This document shows positions 38,353 through 51,102 of a DNA stretch of 64,000 nt, piece after piece. Origin of the DNA: an uncultured Oscillospiraceae bacterium (GTDB lineage: Bacteria; Bacillota; Clostridia; Oscillospirales; Oscillospiraceae). How positions within the stretch are numbered: position 1 is the stretch's first letter; every line of letters begins with the position of its first letter. Under the pieces are notes generated by a model. The model was not told the origin of the DNA and did not search any database. It saw only the letters and a program-made list of their open reading frames with translations. The position numbers and the translations under genes were made by a program. The stretch is from positions 1 through 64,000 of the forward strand of contig CANRFC010000012.1 in assembly GCA_947629795.1 (NCBI GenBank), given 5' to 3'.

Positions 38353-39810
38353 TTAAAGGCCCTTTTCCACCAAGGCAAAGGCGTCACTGACCTGCTTTTT
38401 GGCCTGGGTGAGCCAGGCCTCGTTGTCCCGGCGGTTCTTCTGTCCGGCCTCCAGCAGCTTCCGGGTGTCCTCGGGCTTGGGGGTGCCGCCGGTGACCTTG
38501 GCGTTGAGGCTGGCCAGGGGGTCCAGCATCTGGGCGATCTGCTCGTCGGTGCGCTCCACCACGAAGCCCACCGCCTTCACCGAGGCCTCCTTCATCAGCT
38601 CGCCGGTCATGTTCTCCACCGCCAGGCGGTCCTGGTCCATGAGGGTGTGGATCATGTTGCCCACGATGTGGTGGGTCTTGACGAAGGGCTCGCCCACCTC
38701 CATGGTGAGCTGCTCGGTCATGTGGGTGGCGGCGGTGAAGCCGTCCCGGGCCCGGGCCAGGGCCACGTCCTTGCGGATCCTGGAGCGCTCCAGAGCCAGG
38801 CGGAGCAGCTTCAGATCGCTGACGAGGCCGTCGGCGGTGTCGAAGATGGTGTAGCAATAGGAATAGGTCTCATAGATGGGGAAGAGGCTGATGCTGCCGC
38901 CGGAGGCGAAAGCGTTCAGCATCTGGGCGTACACCGGGGTGGCGCTCTTGCGCAGGGCGGCGCCGGGGTGGTAGTTCTTCTTCTGGGGCATGATGGAGGA
39001 GCCGCCGCAGATGCTGGCGTCGCCGTCCAGGATGCCGCACTCCGTGCTGGCGAAGAAGTCCAGGTCGTGGCCCACCCGGCTCAGGGTGCCGCTGAGGATG
39101 GCCATGGCGGCCTCTACCTCCAGGTAATAGTCCACCGCCGAGTTGGCCATGAGGGTGTTTTCCAGGGCCCCGTCGAAGCCCAGGAGCTCGGCCAGACGAT
39201 ACTTGTTGAGCCGGAAGGCGCTGCCGATCCCCGCCCCCGCTCCCATGGGACACTGGTTGATGATCCCGTAGGCGTGGCGCAGGCGGCTCAGGTCGTTTTC
39301 CAGGCAGAGGTGGATGCTCATGAGGTAGTGGCCCCAGGTGCCGGGCTGGGCGGGCTGGCCGTAAGTATAGTAGGGGATGACGGTCTCCATGTTCTCCTGG
39401 GCCTGGGCCTCCAGGGTCTTCTGGGTGGCAATGATCTCGTCCATGAGCTGCCACACGATCCGGCGCATGTTCATGCGGTGTTCCGTGAAGTAGATGTCGT
39501 TCCGACTGCGGCCCACGTGGAGCTTGCAGGCGGTGTCCATGCCGATCTGGTCATAGAGGGCCTGCTCGTAGACAAAGAAGATGTCCTGGCCGTGGGCGGC
39601 GTTTTTCAGGTCCTCCTCGGTGACCGAGGCCAGAACGGCTACCAGGCCCTTGTCGATCTTCTCATACTCCTCGCGGGTGAGAAAGCCCTGTTCCACCAGC
39701 ATCATGGCGTAGGCCCGGTTGAGCCAGGTCTCCAGATCGGCCCGGTACTTGCAGTCGTGGAAAAGCTCCTTCTTTTCTGTTTGGATATAGCTTTGCATCA
39801 ATTCGTCCAT
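38353..39810 (-). CDS. Argininosuccinate lyase-like protein (fumarase/aspartase superfamily)
   Basis: A 485-residue relative of ArgH. LHVGRSRND (97-105) and SSIMPQKKN (271-279) match the superfamily signatures, and the three-helix-bundle order is kept. The usual TH-x-Q catalytic His is replaced: here TYGQ (residues 149-152). No argG or other arginine genes are nearby; it ends an operon with an asparaginase-like protein and a Na+ symporter. It probably makes fumarate from a succinyl-amine substrate other than argininosuccinate, or works in reverse. Start chosen as ATG 39810 (GGAG at 9 bases); 39825 is the alternative. Confidence 0.75.
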   Translation of the reverse strand: MDELMQSYIQTEKKELFHDCKYRADLETWLNRAYAMMLVEQGFLTREEYEKIDKGLVAVLASVTEEDLKNAAHGQDIFFVYEQALYDQIGMDTACKLHVGRSRNDIYFTEHRMNMRRIVWQLMDEIIATQKTLEAQAQENMETVIPYYTYGQPAQPGTWGHYLMSIHLCLENDLSRLRHAYGIINQCPMGAGAGIGSAFRLNKYRLAELLGFDGALENTLMANSAVDYYLEVEAAMAILSGTLSRVGHDLDFFASTECGILDGDASICGGSSIMPQKKNYHPGAALRKSATPVYAQMLNAFASGGSISLFPIYETYSYCYTIFDTADGLVSDLKLLRLALERSRIRKDVALARARDGFTAATHMTEQLTMEVGEPFVKTHHIVGNMIHTLMDQDRLAVENMTGELMKEASVKAVGFVVERTDEQIAQMLDPLASLNAKVTGGTPKPEDTRKLLEAGQKNRRDNEAWLTQAKKQVSDAFALVEKGL

Positions 39811-39854
39811 AAGAGAATACTCCATTCATTAAGGCTTTTGGAAATGAGGAGGGC

Positions 39855-40550
39855 TCAGACCTGGGACAATTCCCGGGGGACGGGCCTTTTGTAAAAGCGG
39901 GTGAGGATGGGGCGCAGAACTCTGACCCAGAACTGGAGCAGGGGGCCGGTGAGCAGAAGACTGACCAGCGTCCCCCAGCCCCAGGTGCCTCCCAGGACCC
40001 AGCCGATGGCAAACCAGAGAACGTCTGAGAGGACACGGGCTGTCCCGATGGCAAGGCCGGTGCGCCGGGAAACACAGAGCATGATGATCTCCAGGCAGCT
40101 CCCGCCCCGGTCCGGGTAGAGGTAGACGGCGATACCGGCGGCGTTGATGACCAGGCCCAGAAGCATGTAGGCAAACCGGGCGGGATAGCTCTCCGGGACC
40201 GGGGGGAGAAGGGGGAGCATCAGGTCCACCATGGGCCCCAGGATCAGGGTGGTGAGGACGGTGGTCAGCCCCACAGAGTGCCTGTCCAGGAGAAAGCCCA
40301 CGGGGAAAATGATCAGGCCGACGATGACGATGGCGATCCCCAGATCCACATGGAAGAGATTGCTGATCCCCTCGTCTACCATATAGATGGGGGCCACGCC
40401 CACCCCGCTCTGGAAGGCCATTCGGGCGCCGTAGCCGGATATGGCCATGCCGGGGAGGATCAGAAGCAGGCTCCGCAGCAAGAGGGAGGGAGAGGGCGGC
40501 GCATCAGGATGGGCCCCTTCGCAGCCTGCCGGAGGCGGGATGGGGGTCAT
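39855..40550 (-). CDS. YczE/YitT-like membrane protein
   Basis: A 231-residue protein with about five helices. GMAISGYGARMAFQSGVGVAPIYMVDEGIS, LIIFPVGFLLDRHSVGLTTVLTTLILGPMVDLML and GIAVYLYPDRGGSCLEIIMLCVSRRTGLAIGTARVLSDV follow the YczE pattern, where GxGPwD-like motifs repeat. Relatives are poorly characterised membrane proteins. ATG 40550 overlaps the stop of the symporter (ATGA), so it is coupled to it. Possible role: export or transport of an operon-related metabolite. Confidence 0.8.
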   Translation of the reverse strand: MTPIPPPAGCEGAHPDAPPSPSLLLRSLLLILPGMAISGYGARMAFQSGVGVAPIYMVDEGISNLFHVDLGIAIVIVGLIIFPVGFLLDRHSVGLTTVLTTLILGPMVDLMLPLLPPVPESYPARFAYMLLGLVINAAGIAVYLYPDRGGSCLEIIMLCVSRRTGLAIGTARVLSDVLWFAIGWVLGGTWGWGTLVSLLLTGPLLQFWVRVLRPILTRFYKRPVPRELSQV

Positions 40551-41959
40551 GCCGCGGCAGAGGCCTTGCCGTTCATGCTCAGAGAGCCGGCGACACAGAT
40601 GACCAGGCTGATGGCGCAGGCAAAGATGTTGCCGATGGCGCCCTGGCCCATGGCGATGAAGACGATGTCCAGAATGACGCTGGAGGCGCAGCCGATGATC
40701 ATGGCGTAGGCAACGGCCTTGCTGTTCAGCTTCTTCCAGAAGAAGCCCAGCAGCACGGGGATGGCGACCACGGGGCCGAAGGCGTTGCCGCCGATCTTGA
40801 AGGCGGTGACGATGTCGGGCACCACAATGGCCAGAGCGGCGATGATGGCGGCGCCGGCGGCGATGATGACCCGGCTGGTGGTCAGAAGCTGCTTATCTCC
40901 CATGTTGGGCTTCATGGGCCGGATCACGTCGTCGGTGATGGAGGAGGTCAGCAGAAGCAGGAAGGAGTTGCCGGTGGTGATGAGCAGGGAGAGGATGATG
41001 GCAATGATGATGCCCCGGATGCCCACGGGCATATAGGTGGCGATAAGGCGGGGGACAAAGAGGGAGCCGTCGGTGATCTCGGGGAAGATCTGGCCGATCC
41101 ACAGAGCGGGAGTGGCGGACCAGAAGGTGACGACCAGGCAGACCGCGCAGGCAATGGCCTGGCCCTTGACGGCGGACTTGGTGTCCTTGGCGGCCAGGGA
41201 GTACTTGGAGTAGGAGGGCTCGCAGGACACGTTGAGCACATAGCTGACCATGTAGGAGAAGAACATGATGGGAGTCATGGAGAAGGCACCGTCCATGCTG
41301 AGCTGTTCGGGATTCACGTTGGCCATGGCGGTGGAGAGGCCGCCGGCGGCATTGGCAGCGGTCAAGGGGACGATCACCACGCAGACGATGAGGATGAAAA
41401 TGCTCTGCAGGGAATTGGTGACGGCCGAGCCCCACATGCCGGAGAAGAAGGTGAACAGCACGATGATGGACGCACCGATGATGATGCCCACGGTGGGGGA
41501 GCAGATGCCCAGGGACTCCATCATGGCGCCGAAGGACTTGAACTGGGCGGCGCAGGTGGACAGGCCCACGATGACGATGGACCAGGCGGAGATCTTCTGG
41601 GCCCGCTCACCGAAGCGGCGGGAGATGAAGTCGGGGATGGAGGAGGCGCCGGTATCCCGCATCTTTCCCACCAGGAAGATGAGGATGAACCAGCCGATGT
41701 ACCAGAAGATGTTGGTCATCATGCCGGAGATGCCGGTATTGTGGATGAGCTGATAATTGGAGAACAGGATCGAAGCGCCCATACAGGTGGAGATGATGGA
41801 GCCGGCGATGGTCCAGGTGCCCAGGCTCTGGCTGGCGGTGGTGAAGTCGGCGGCGCTCTTGACCTTCTTCTTCGCCAGGTACAGGCCGATGCCGATGAGG
41901 ATCACATTATAGAGGACGATCACAAGGTAGTCCGCACCGCTTAACAAACTGTTGTGCAT
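40547..41959 (-). CDS. Sodium:solute symporter (SSS family)
   Basis: A 470-residue carrier with 13 predicted helices and the LeuT-like fold. Early segment SQSLGTWTIAGSIISTCMGASILFSN and later LSLLITTGNSFLLLLTSSITDDVIRP are family landmarks; the Na+ site residues are expected in those two helices. It would import the substrate handled by the adjacent asparaginase-like and lyase-like enzymes. ATG 41959 follows AAAGGAGGAAACC, 25 bases after the asparaginase gene. Confidence 0.92.
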   Translation of the reverse strand: MHNSLLSGADYLVIVLYNVILIGIGLYLAKKKVKSAADFTTASQSLGTWTIAGSIISTCMGASILFSNYQLIHNTGISGMMTNIFWYIGWFILIFLVGKMRDTGASSIPDFISRRFGERAQKISAWSIVIVGLSTCAAQFKSFGAMMESLGICSPTVGIIIGASIIVLFTFFSGMWGSAVTNSLQSIFILIVCVVIVPLTAANAAGGLSTAMANVNPEQLSMDGAFSMTPIMFFSYMVSYVLNVSCEPSYSKYSLAAKDTKSAVKGQAIACAVCLVVTFWSATPALWIGQIFPEITDGSLFVPRLIATYMPVGIRGIIIAIILSLLITTGNSFLLLLTSSITDDVIRPMKPNMGDKQLLTTSRVIIAAGAAIIAALAIVVPDIVTAFKIGGNAFGPVVAIPVLLGFFWKKLNSKAVAYAMIIGCASSVILDIVFIAMGQGAIGNIFACAISLVICVAGSLSMNGKASAAA

Positions 41960-41984
41960 ACTGGTTTCCTCCTTTTACGTTCCT

Positions 41985-42992
41985 TTAATTTTCCGAACGG
42001 AAATACATATGGAAGCTCTCTCTGATCTGCTCGGGGGTGCACTCGCTCATGAGCAGCAGGGTCAGCAGGATGCGGGCCTTCGGGCAGTCCAACTGGCCCG
42101 TCATCAGGTAGTTTTTATAGATATAGCTGGGGGAGCCCTCAAAGTCGCCGTAGGTGCTGATGGGGGACTCGCCCTTTCCGGTGCGGGTGCCGATGACGAT
42201 GGGGAGCTTGTCCCCGTACTTTTTCCGCAGGGCCTCCAGCTTGTCGAAGATGGCAGGCACTATGTCACAGCAGCCGGTGCCGGCCACCACGATGCCGTCG
42301 TAGCCGTCCTCCTCGATGTGGTCGAAGACCTTGCCGTCCACGCCCAGATAGCAGTACTGAAACAGCACGTTCTTGGGCTCGGTGGACTTCACATTGAGCC
42401 AGGGCATCTTCCTGCGGACGGGGCGGTTGCGCAGGCTTGCACAGCCCTCGATGACCATGCCCAGGGGGAATTCCGACTGGAAGGCAAACCGGCCGGTGGG
42501 GTGCAGCTTCTGCACGTACTGGGCGGAGTGGATCCAGCCGTTGGTGACCACCACCACGCCCACGCCCCGCAGGGCGTCGGAGGCGGCGGCACTGACGGCG
42601 TCGAAGAGGTTGGCGGGACCGTCGGCGCTGTACATGTCCGAGGTACACATGCCGCCGGTGACCACCACAGGGGCGTCCACATCCTGGAGCAGCAGCTCAA
42701 AGCCGAAGGAGCCCTCCTCCATGCAGTCGGTGCCCATGACGACCACCACACCGTCGGCGCCATCCTCCCGGACCGCCTGGCGGATCTCCTTTGCCGCCTC
42801 TACAATATCTTTGGGCTGCATCATGTAGCCGGCGATGATGTCGGCCCGCTCCTTGAAGGAAAACCGGAGCTTGTTCTGAAACTGGGGCATGCTGCGGATC
42901 AGCGCAAAAAGGTCGATCCGCTCACCGGGAGTGCTGGTCGCGGTGATAGTCGCGCCGGATAAGAGCAGGACACAGATGTGCTTCACGGTCAT
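41985..42992 (-). CDS. Asparaginase-like amidohydrolase
   Basis: A 335-residue member of the bacterial asparaginase family. T15 in LLSGATITA corresponds to the nucleophile Thr, and GTD (87-89) to the second Thr-Asp pair, but the flanking HGTDTxEET reads MGTDCMEEGS. The SADGPANLFDAV motif (122-133) is intact. The catalytic Lys that normally follows it (AADKAS) is not present; the stretch reads AAASDALRG. It could be a divergent amidase acting on an asparagine-like substrate. First gene of the operon. GGAG lies only two bases before the ATG, so GTG 42986 may be the true start. Confidence 0.8.
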   Translation of the reverse strand: MTVKHICVLLLSGATITATSTPGERIDLFALIRSMPQFQNKLRFSFKERADIIAGYMMQPKDIVEAAKEIRQAVREDGADGVVVVMGTDCMEEGSFGFELLLQDVDAPVVVTGGMCTSDMYSADGPANLFDAVSAAASDALRGVGVVVVTNGWIHSAQYVQKLHPTGRFAFQSEFPLGMVIEGCASLRNRPVRRKMPWLNVKSTEPKNVLFQYCYLGVDGKVFDHIEEDGYDGIVVAGTGCCDIVPAIFDKLEALRKKYGDKLPIVIGTRTGKGESPISTYGDFEGSPSYIYKNYLMTGQLDCPKARILLTLLLMSECTPEQIRESFHMYFRSEN

Positions 42993-43088
42993 TTCTCCTT
43001 TCTCTTTTCTGCATATTTTGCGATATGGGCTTGGCTTTGATGCTCACCTCCCGGCCCCCTTGCGGCGGGCAAAAATTTTGAACACAAA

Positions 43089-43109
43089 TCAATGAATTTA
43101 ATTCATTGA
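43089..43109. promoter_or_regulatory. Perfect 21-bp palindrome, candidate TetR operator
   Basis: Arms TCAATGAATT (43089-43098) and AATTCATTGA (43100-43109) around a single T. It sits directly downstream of the leftward operon promoter, so a bound regulator would block transcription. Confidence 0.7.
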
Positions 43110-43119
43110 ATCTAAACCA

Positions 43120-43148
43120 ATAATATTCCCCCGAGCGGAAAATTGCAA
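43120..43148 (-). promoter_or_regulatory. Promoter of the asparaginase-symporter-lyase operon
   Basis: Leftward TTGCAA (43143-43148), 17-base spacer, TATTAT (43120-43125). The start site should be near 43113, four bases before the palindrome. The rest of 42993-43357 is AT-rich regulatory DNA with no gene. Confidence 0.65.
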
Positions 43149-43286
43149 CAGAAAAATGAGTTCAGCGGTCAAAACTGTAAGAAACGCTAAAAATGACGGG
43201 AAATTTTTGGATAATATGCCCGGTAAACGGAAAGCGGGAGCGGAGCAGGTACTTGCTGTATAAGGGGATAGGACGGTCGATTCCTG

Positions 43287-43316
43287 TTGACATTGCCTTG
43301 CTTTAGCGTCTATAAT
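43287..43316 (+). promoter_or_regulatory. Promoter of the TetR gene
   Basis: Consensus TTGACA (43287-43292), 18-base spacer, consensus TATAAT (43311-43316). Confidence 0.8.
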
Positions 43317-43357
43317 GAGCCAAATGGGTATTTACCGAAATAAAAGGAGAACGCGCC

Positions 43358-43960
43358 ATGACGAAGAGGAAGGAACAGGCCGACGCCGCCAGGGCGGCGA
43401 TCATCGAAGCGGGGCGGGAGCTGCTCAGCCAGCGGGAGGCCAAGGATATCAAGATCAAGGATATCATGAAGGCCTGCAGTCTCTCTCCCGGCCTGTTTTA
43501 TCACTATTTTGAATCCAAGGACGCCTTCATCGTGACCCTGGTCACCGAAAGCTGGGACCGTTCCTTTGATATCCTGAATGATCCCGATATCCCGCCCCTC
43601 CGCCGGCTGCGGGAGTACTGTACGGTCGTCCTCCAAAGCCTGATGAATGTCGACCCCCAACTGCGGCGGAACCTGAACACATACCGCATGAGCGATGTGT
43701 ACTCAAAGGAACGGGAGATCCACTATCGGGATGATGCGATGATGAACTCGGTAGAGGAATATATGAGGGATTGGATCGCGAAGGGGGAGTTTTCCTCCGA
43801 CCTCCCGGTGGAGTATATCGCCAAGCTGCTGGTCTACATTGTCCACGGCATCGACTTCAACGCCTCCCTCTACAAGCGGGAGTGGACCGACTGGTCCTGG
43901 TGCGACGAGTTCTTCGACCATGTGGAGGAGAGCCTTCTGAAGCCATACCTCCTGAAATGA
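43358..43960 (+). CDS. TetR family transcriptional regulator
   Basis: A 200-residue regulator. N-terminal helix-turn-helix about 20-60 (AIIEAGRELLSQREAKDIKIKDIMKACSLSPGLFYHYFESKDAF). The C-terminal ligand domain is Trp/Tyr-rich (WTDWSWCDEFFDHVEE), suggesting an aromatic or amphipathic ligand pocket. AAGGAGAACGCGCC precedes the ATG. It is divergent from the asparaginase-lyase operon, whose promoter carries a perfect palindrome, so it is the likely local repressor. Confidence 0.92.
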   Translation: MTKRKEQADAARAAIIEAGRELLSQREAKDIKIKDIMKACSLSPGLFYHYFESKDAFIVTLVTESWDRSFDILNDPDIPPLRRLREYCTVVLQSLMNVDPQLRRNLNTYRMSDVYSKEREIHYRDDAMMNSVEEYMRDWIAKGEFSSDLPVEYIAKLLVYIVHGIDFNASLYKREWTDWSWCDEFFDHVEESLLKPYLLK

Positions 43961-48529: not shown

Positions 48530-48826
<297 letters not shown>

Positions 48827-48853
48827 CCTGCTTCCTTTTGAAAAAGAAAGTAG

Positions 48854-50545
<1,692 letters not shown>

Positions 50546-50561
50546 GCAAAAAGCGCACCCA

Positions 50562-50588
50562 AAGGCCCGGCGGTCCCCGCCGGGCCTT
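50562..50588 (+). terminator. Terminator of groESL
   Basis: Perfect 12-bp stem (50562-50573 with 50577-50588, loop TCC) then TTTT. Another 12-bp hairpin (50700-50711 with 50724-50735) lies in the GC-rich gap before the next gene. Confidence 0.85.
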
Positions 50589-50814
50589 TTCATACGCGGG
50601 GCTGTCGGCGGAGCCGACACGGGCCCGCCGCGGAAACGCGAAGCGCAGGCAGCGCCGATCTGCACAGGCCCTGCACGATCTTTTGAGCCCCTTTGGACAA
50701 ACCAGCTCCTGCCGAGCGATCGACAGGAGCTGGTTGCTGTTCTGGGAAATCGGAATTCTACCGGGACAGAGCGGTTTCGGAGCAGATCATGAAATACCCG
50801 CGTTGTAGCCGGGA

Positions 50815-51102
50815 TCAAAACCATTTTCGGCATGCCCGCCGGAGAATTTCTTCGGTCTCGGCGGCTCCGGCTTCCAATATCCGCTTGTTTCGTTGGTATT
50901 CCGGGTCCGCATCCAGGAGCGCTTGTACCTCCGGTGTTATTTCCGGCGTGGGAGCGGAGGCAGAGGGACGGTACTCCGGGGCGGCGGTGTCGCTGTCCGC
51001 CTCCATCTCATCCAGAATGGCAGCGGTAAAAGCGTGGTCGATCCAGTCGGTGCCGGTGGGTTGGAATATTGGTTCACCAAAAAAGTCGTTCATGTGACCC
51101 AT
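50815..51102 (-). CDS. Small acidic hypothetical protein
   Basis: A 95-residue acidic protein (Glu/Asp/Pro-rich centre PEYRPSASAPTPEITPE, then a charged helix). AAAGGAGATATCGGCT precedes ATG 51102. Same strand as three other unknown genes upstream. Nothing recognised. Confidence 0.55.
   Translation of the reverse strand: MGHMNDFFGEPIFQPTGTDWIDHAFTAAILDEMEADSDTAAPEYRPSASAPTPEITPEVQALLDADPEYQRNKRILEAGAAETEEILRRACRKWF

Follow-up and report, generated by a model that had tools for sequence, protein, structure and literature searches.

An asparaginase-family enzyme paired with an ArgH-superfamily lyase in a TetR-linked operon of an uncultured Oscillospiraceae bacterium: a candidate route for cleaving N-substituted asparagines

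The stretch of DNA analysed here, called the window, comprises 64,000 nucleotides from an uncultured Oscillospiraceae bacterium. Between positions 38353 and 43960 it carries a set of five genes, whose reading frames are all intact and for which the families named in the original prediction were borne out. On the minus strand, in the direction of reading, lie the genes of an asparaginase-family enzyme of 335 amino acids (41985–42992; PF00710 and PF17763), an SSS-family sodium:solute symporter of 470 amino acids (40547–41959; PF00474, 109 bits), which has only distant relatives among solved structures, a YczE/YitT-family membrane protein of 231 amino acids (39855–40550; PF02588 above its cut-off, the YczE model below), and an ArgH-superfamily C-N lyase of 490 amino acids (38353–39825; PF00206 and PF14698). 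The fifth gene, on the plus strand and divergent from the others, encodes a TetR-family regulator of 200 amino acids (43358–43960; PF00440 and PF17922). Its G+C content of 56% is below that of the neighbouring genes.

From the asparaginase to the lyase, the genes are spaced by 25 nt, a 4-nt overlap (symporter and YczE-like gene), and 29 nt. Together with a promoter-like site in front of the asparaginase gene (TTGCAA-17-TATTAT, 43148–43120, minus strand) and a rho-independent terminator hairpin behind the lyase gene (38330–38295, minus strand; 16 pairs, T-rich tail, MFE z-score of -4.9), this spacing points to one transcript for the four genes, in agreement with the predicted single promoter and terminator next to the TetR gene. 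The promoter-like site matches the consensus at 9 of 12 positions, such sites being no more frequent in the operon region than in shuffled sequence. For tetR, a perfect sigma-70 match is found (TTGACA-18-TATAAT, 43287–43316, plus strand). A perfect palindrome of 21 bp with 10-nt arms, TCAATGAATTTAATTCATTGA (43089–43109), lies where the operon transcript would begin, 10 nt downstream of the -10 box; it occurs once within the window, where none would be expected by chance, and is a good candidate for the TetR operator.

The asparaginase-family enzyme had been described as keeping T15 and the T-D pair while lacking both the catalytic lysine and the histidine of HGTD. Aligned to AnsB, the asparaginase II of E. 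coli, its residues T15, T88, D89, and K162 correspond to T12, T89, D90, and K162, the lysine in the PDB alignment as well as in the family alignment, so that all four catalytic residues are kept and the claimed loss of the lysine is contradicted. The histidine is indeed replaced (MGTD), but its absence alone is not odd, since QGTD is found in all five other members of the branch that were compared, namely the copy of a further cluster of this genome (see below), one from Rubrobacter, two from Streptomyces, and one relative from the phylum sample. Changes are found at the substrate contacts, all three type II contacts being altered with respect to AnsB: Ser58 is replaced by Gly55, Gln59 by Tyr56, and the Glu283 column holds Pro288, the latter being the least certain position of the alignment in a gap-rich hairpin region with indels. 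The hairpin glutamate is common to the five other branch members, and the Ser58 position is lost also in both Streptomyces copies. The proline at the hairpin column, GATI in place of GGTI, and GCCD in place of the G-x-G-H motif distinguish the window enzyme from the other branch members. In addition, it does not reach the cut-off of the type II asparaginase model TIGR00520 (153.2 versus 314.3 bits), and has no obvious signal peptide.

In characterised asparaginase, Ser58 anchors the alpha-carboxylate of the substrate (PMC6667453). In PGA, Glu68 and Glu294' contact the alpha-amino group, Glu294' being the equivalent of EcAII Glu283' (PMC7567106); by our own reading, Glu68 corresponds to the Gln59 position. 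With these contacts changed and the catalytic set kept, the part recognising a free amino acid is altered and the hydrolytic centre retained, which fits an N-substituted asparagine without proving it. The residue arguments for this enzyme and for the lyase rest on alignments of about 30% identity; the predicted structures are weak (mean pLDDT of 49 and 60), that of the asparaginase being too poor for use.

In the lyase, GRSRND, SSIMPQKKN, and TYGQ instead of TH-x-Q were all found as predicted (S107, R108, and N109; T154-Y155-G156-Q157; S276 and S277; PQKKN at 280–284; followed by H286 and P316). GRSRND, the catalytic Ser-Ser pair, the MPQKKN loop, and a fold match place it in the ArgH/EDDS-lyase superfamily, and the residues shared with ArgH imply a similar chemistry. 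However, it fails the motif tests for the substrate of ArgH. The stretch YNxDxQEDK, which we take to bind arginine, is present in the ArgH of E. coli (YNKDMQEDK) and Paenibacillus and absent here, the histidine of TH-x-Q is replaced by Tyr155, and Asp287 is likewise missing. The score against the argH model TIGR00838 is 271.0 bits, under the cut-off of 279.5, and that against the aspA model is 43.7 bits versus a cut-off of 681.2. The argG gene is absent from the whole genome, which is 98.6% complete, while the search control was positive in 14 of 14 genomes; the predicted absence of arginine biosynthesis genes thus holds for argG, the one gene that the search covered. On the grounds of the motif tests and the lack of argG, an assignment as argininosuccinate lyase of arginine biosynthesis was rejected.

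The closest solved structure by sequence is EDDS lyase (6g3d, E 5e-52), ahead of the argininosuccinate lyases, and a Foldseek search with the lyase model, itself of moderate quality, also placed EDDS lyase first by a narrow margin. EDDS lyase cleaves N-substituted aspartates in a reversible reaction whose products are fumarate and an amine (PMC9486952, PMC12363623). The enzyme of Chelativorans sp. BNC1 (6g3d–6g3i) shares with the window lyase the Ser-Arg-Asn, the SSIMPQKKN loop, and the catalytic serines, and both lack the histidine and the arginine-binding motif of argininosuccinate lyases. Identity is about 27–28%, and the pockets differ at three positions. In a sequence alignment over residues 44–482, for which the numbering was checked, the EDDS lyase pocket residues R112, N113, Q159, N288, D290, and Y320 (PMC12363623) face R108, N109, Y155, N284, H286, and P316, so that R112, N113, and N288 are conserved while Q159, D290, and Y320 are replaced by Y155, H286, and P316. 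Unlike the window lyase, EDDS lyase has no known pairing with an asparaginase.

A second asparaginase-lyase cluster was found in the same genome, outside the window (L009 5953–12545; G000:C6). It encodes a LysR regulator, a DUF819 permease, an asparaginase, and two tandem ArgH-like lyases, with the permease before the asparaginase and both lyases behind it. The cluster lies directly downstream of apparent rnf-type electron-transport genes. Its asparaginase is 43% identical to that of the window, and its lyases have GRSSGD where the window lyase has GRSRND; transporters and regulators differ between the two clusters (SSS and TetR versus DUF819 and LysR). In the phylogenetic analysis, the two asparaginases are sisters (support 97/95), whereas the window lyase groups with a lyase of another genus (genome G025; 100/100) and the second-cluster lyases group with lyases encoded on plasmids of Variovorax, Bradyrhizobium, and Thioclava (99/98). 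A single clade for the lyases of both clusters was rejected (AU p 7e-55; 16 rows with thin sampling). This means that one asparaginase line has been coupled to two lyase lines. By a rough count, the chance of two such neighbours among about 2,700 genes is of the order of 1 in 10,000 or less; a common origin of both clusters would lower the weight of this figure, not the inference that the pair is kept. The recurrence of the pairing in one genome is more than chance and constitutes the strongest new evidence of this study.

Ordinary enzymes for the same metabolites are encoded elsewhere in the genome, all above their cut-offs: a type I asparaginase (266.8 bits, cut-off 260.5), an aspartase (701.9, cut-off 510), FumC (708.8, cut-off 664.75), and PurB (386.8, cut-off 326.2). 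Both asparaginase-lyase pairs are therefore extra, and a plain redundancy of asparagine, aspartate, or purine housekeeping is unlikely.

Outside this genome, the conserved gene order that the original prediction expected of some relative did not appear in the samples searched. Among 300 genomes of the family, the window lyase has one relative above threshold, that of G025 (39% identity), whose gene stands in another context in a genome (87% complete) without this asparaginase; no close relative of the second-cluster lyases was found there. The window asparaginase line is absent from all 15 other congeners, and in the samples of the order and of the class it gave no match above threshold. Five matches were found at the level of the phylum, none with an adjacent lyase, and a phylum sample yielded no further lyase of the window type. 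Peptide-pattern scans of the genome contig collection, which are insensitive, recovered one lone Chloroflexi asparaginase and no pair. Searches of the viral contig collection gave no pair either, nor did those of the plasmid collection, where relatives of the lyase adjoin other catabolic genes and an AnsB-type asparaginase lies near one of them only in Bradyrhizobium, about 4 kb off and on the opposite strand. The module seems to be rare and of recent assembly or acquisition, and we found no description of the pair in the open-access literature.

At a confidence close to even, we read the operon as a TetR-controlled system that imports and cleaves an asparagine with a substituted alpha-amino nitrogen, for instance of the opine-like or Amadori type. 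In the route that we infer, as to its substrates, order of reactions, transport roles, operator function, and inducer, the SSS symporter would import the N-substituted asparagine with sodium ions, and the cytoplasmic asparaginase-family enzyme would use the usual Thr/Thr-Asp-Lys chemistry to hydrolyse the side-chain amide, so that ammonia is released and an N-substituted aspartate remains. In the lyase, a conserved serine (Ser276 or Ser277, in the SSIMPQKKN loop) would then abstract the C-beta proton and release fumarate and the free amine. Since a lyase of the EDDS type should need both carboxylates of the aspartate, deamidation most likely comes before the elimination. Fumarate would enter the fumarase/aspartase pool of the cell, and the amine, for which the operon holds no enzyme, would be used or exported, perhaps through the YczE-like protein. 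TetR would repress the operon via the palindrome at 43089–43109 until the substrate or product binds. This order of import, deamidation, and release of fumarate from a succinyl-amine had been predicted, and, apart from the part concerning the lysine, it is the best fit to the kinship with EDDS lyase, the lack of argG, the second pairing, and the ordinary enzymes encoded elsewhere.

Asparagine opines and Amadori compounds are the candidate substrates. There is a precedent in the Salmonella fra pathway, where an N-substituted asparagine is the proposed substrate of FraE, a member of the asparaginase family (PMC4072780). Like the window operon, the fra locus for fructose-asparagine combines a transporter with such an enzyme; it continues with a kinase and a deglycase, whereas the window operon has a fumarate-forming lyase, and neither it nor the second cluster contains an ORF for a sugar kinase or deglycase. 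Furthermore, FraE is periplasmic, while the window enzyme has no apparent signal peptide. Import genes and an asparaginase for an asparagine conjugate are also found in the region for succinamopine, an asparagine opine, on pTiEU6. In that system, the proposed first step is cleavage of the conjugate by an opine oxidase, and the paper mentions no lyase (PMC6733357).

The two pairs would then represent a two-step opening of N-substituted asparagines, with two lines of ArgH-superfamily lyases serving two conjugates in one genome; that this is an undescribed route is a possibility we hold with less than even confidence. If true, it would be a third kind of route for asparagine conjugates such as opines and Amadori products, besides the fra deglycase and the opine oxidases. 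It would also explain the three ArgH-like genes of a bacterium without argG, which automatic annotation pipelines tend to label as argininosuccinate lyase, and it would provide natural lyases with altered amine pockets, usable for making N-substituted aspartates.

Bacillus ansAB is an operon of an asparaginase and an aspartase, in which deamidation is followed by the release of fumarate. The window operon could be a duplicate of this kind for free asparagine, its ArgH-like protein acting as an aspartase that yields fumarate and ammonia. The combination of an asparaginase, a fumarate-forming lyase, and a transporter matches this logic, as does the intact catalytic set of the asparaginase. We regard it as rather unlikely, given the ordinary asparaginase and the above-cut-off aspartase elsewhere in the genome, the altered alpha-amino and alpha-carboxylate contacts, and the position of the lyase on the ArgH/EDDS branch, the ansAB lyase being of the AspA type.

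The pocket changes of the asparaginase would also fit another amide, and this weighs against the reading as an enzyme for N-substituted asparagine. With Ser58 and Gln59 replaced and the motifs altered to GATI and GCC, the enzyme could take a substrate unlike L-asparagine, such as N4-substituted asparagine, D-asparagine, or a larger amide, with the lyase taking the product or another part of one conjugate. The lyase, though, would require a succinyl-amine if it acted in the manner of EDDS lyase, and the pairing is repeated, which makes this alternative unlikely. It is more improbable still that the two enzymes are linked in the operon without acting in sequence, the lyase joining an amine and fumarate or belonging to another pathway. 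EDDS lyase is reversible (PMC9486952), but the sodium-dependent importer and the divergent TetR gene point to uptake and breakdown, and an asparaginase is ill-suited to a synthetic route. Despite a TIGR00838 score near the cut-off, it is hardly credible that the lyase serves arginine biosynthesis as a true argininosuccinate lyase and that the asparaginase next to it is unrelated: the genome has no argG, and YNxDxQEDK, the TH-x-Q histidine, and Asp287 are all missing from the enzyme.

Further lyase genes came to light during the searches. A third transporter-lyase unit of the same genome (L012 7131–10913; G000:C23) comprises a LysR regulator, a CitMHS-type anion transporter, and an adenylosuccinate-lyase-like protein scoring just under the PurB cut-off, with the true PurB encoded elsewhere. 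Within the window, an ORF of 765 amino acids on the minus strand (48536–50833) has no Pfam match. On three plasmid loci (L016, L019, and L039), ArgH-like lyases annotated as argininosuccinate lyase adjoin transporter and catabolic genes; in Variovorax, for instance, the neighbours include genes for an Asp/Glu racemase and a member of the agmatinase family. Adjacent ArgG-like and ArgH-like genes were seen on a viral contig of IMG/VR (L044 4692–7236).
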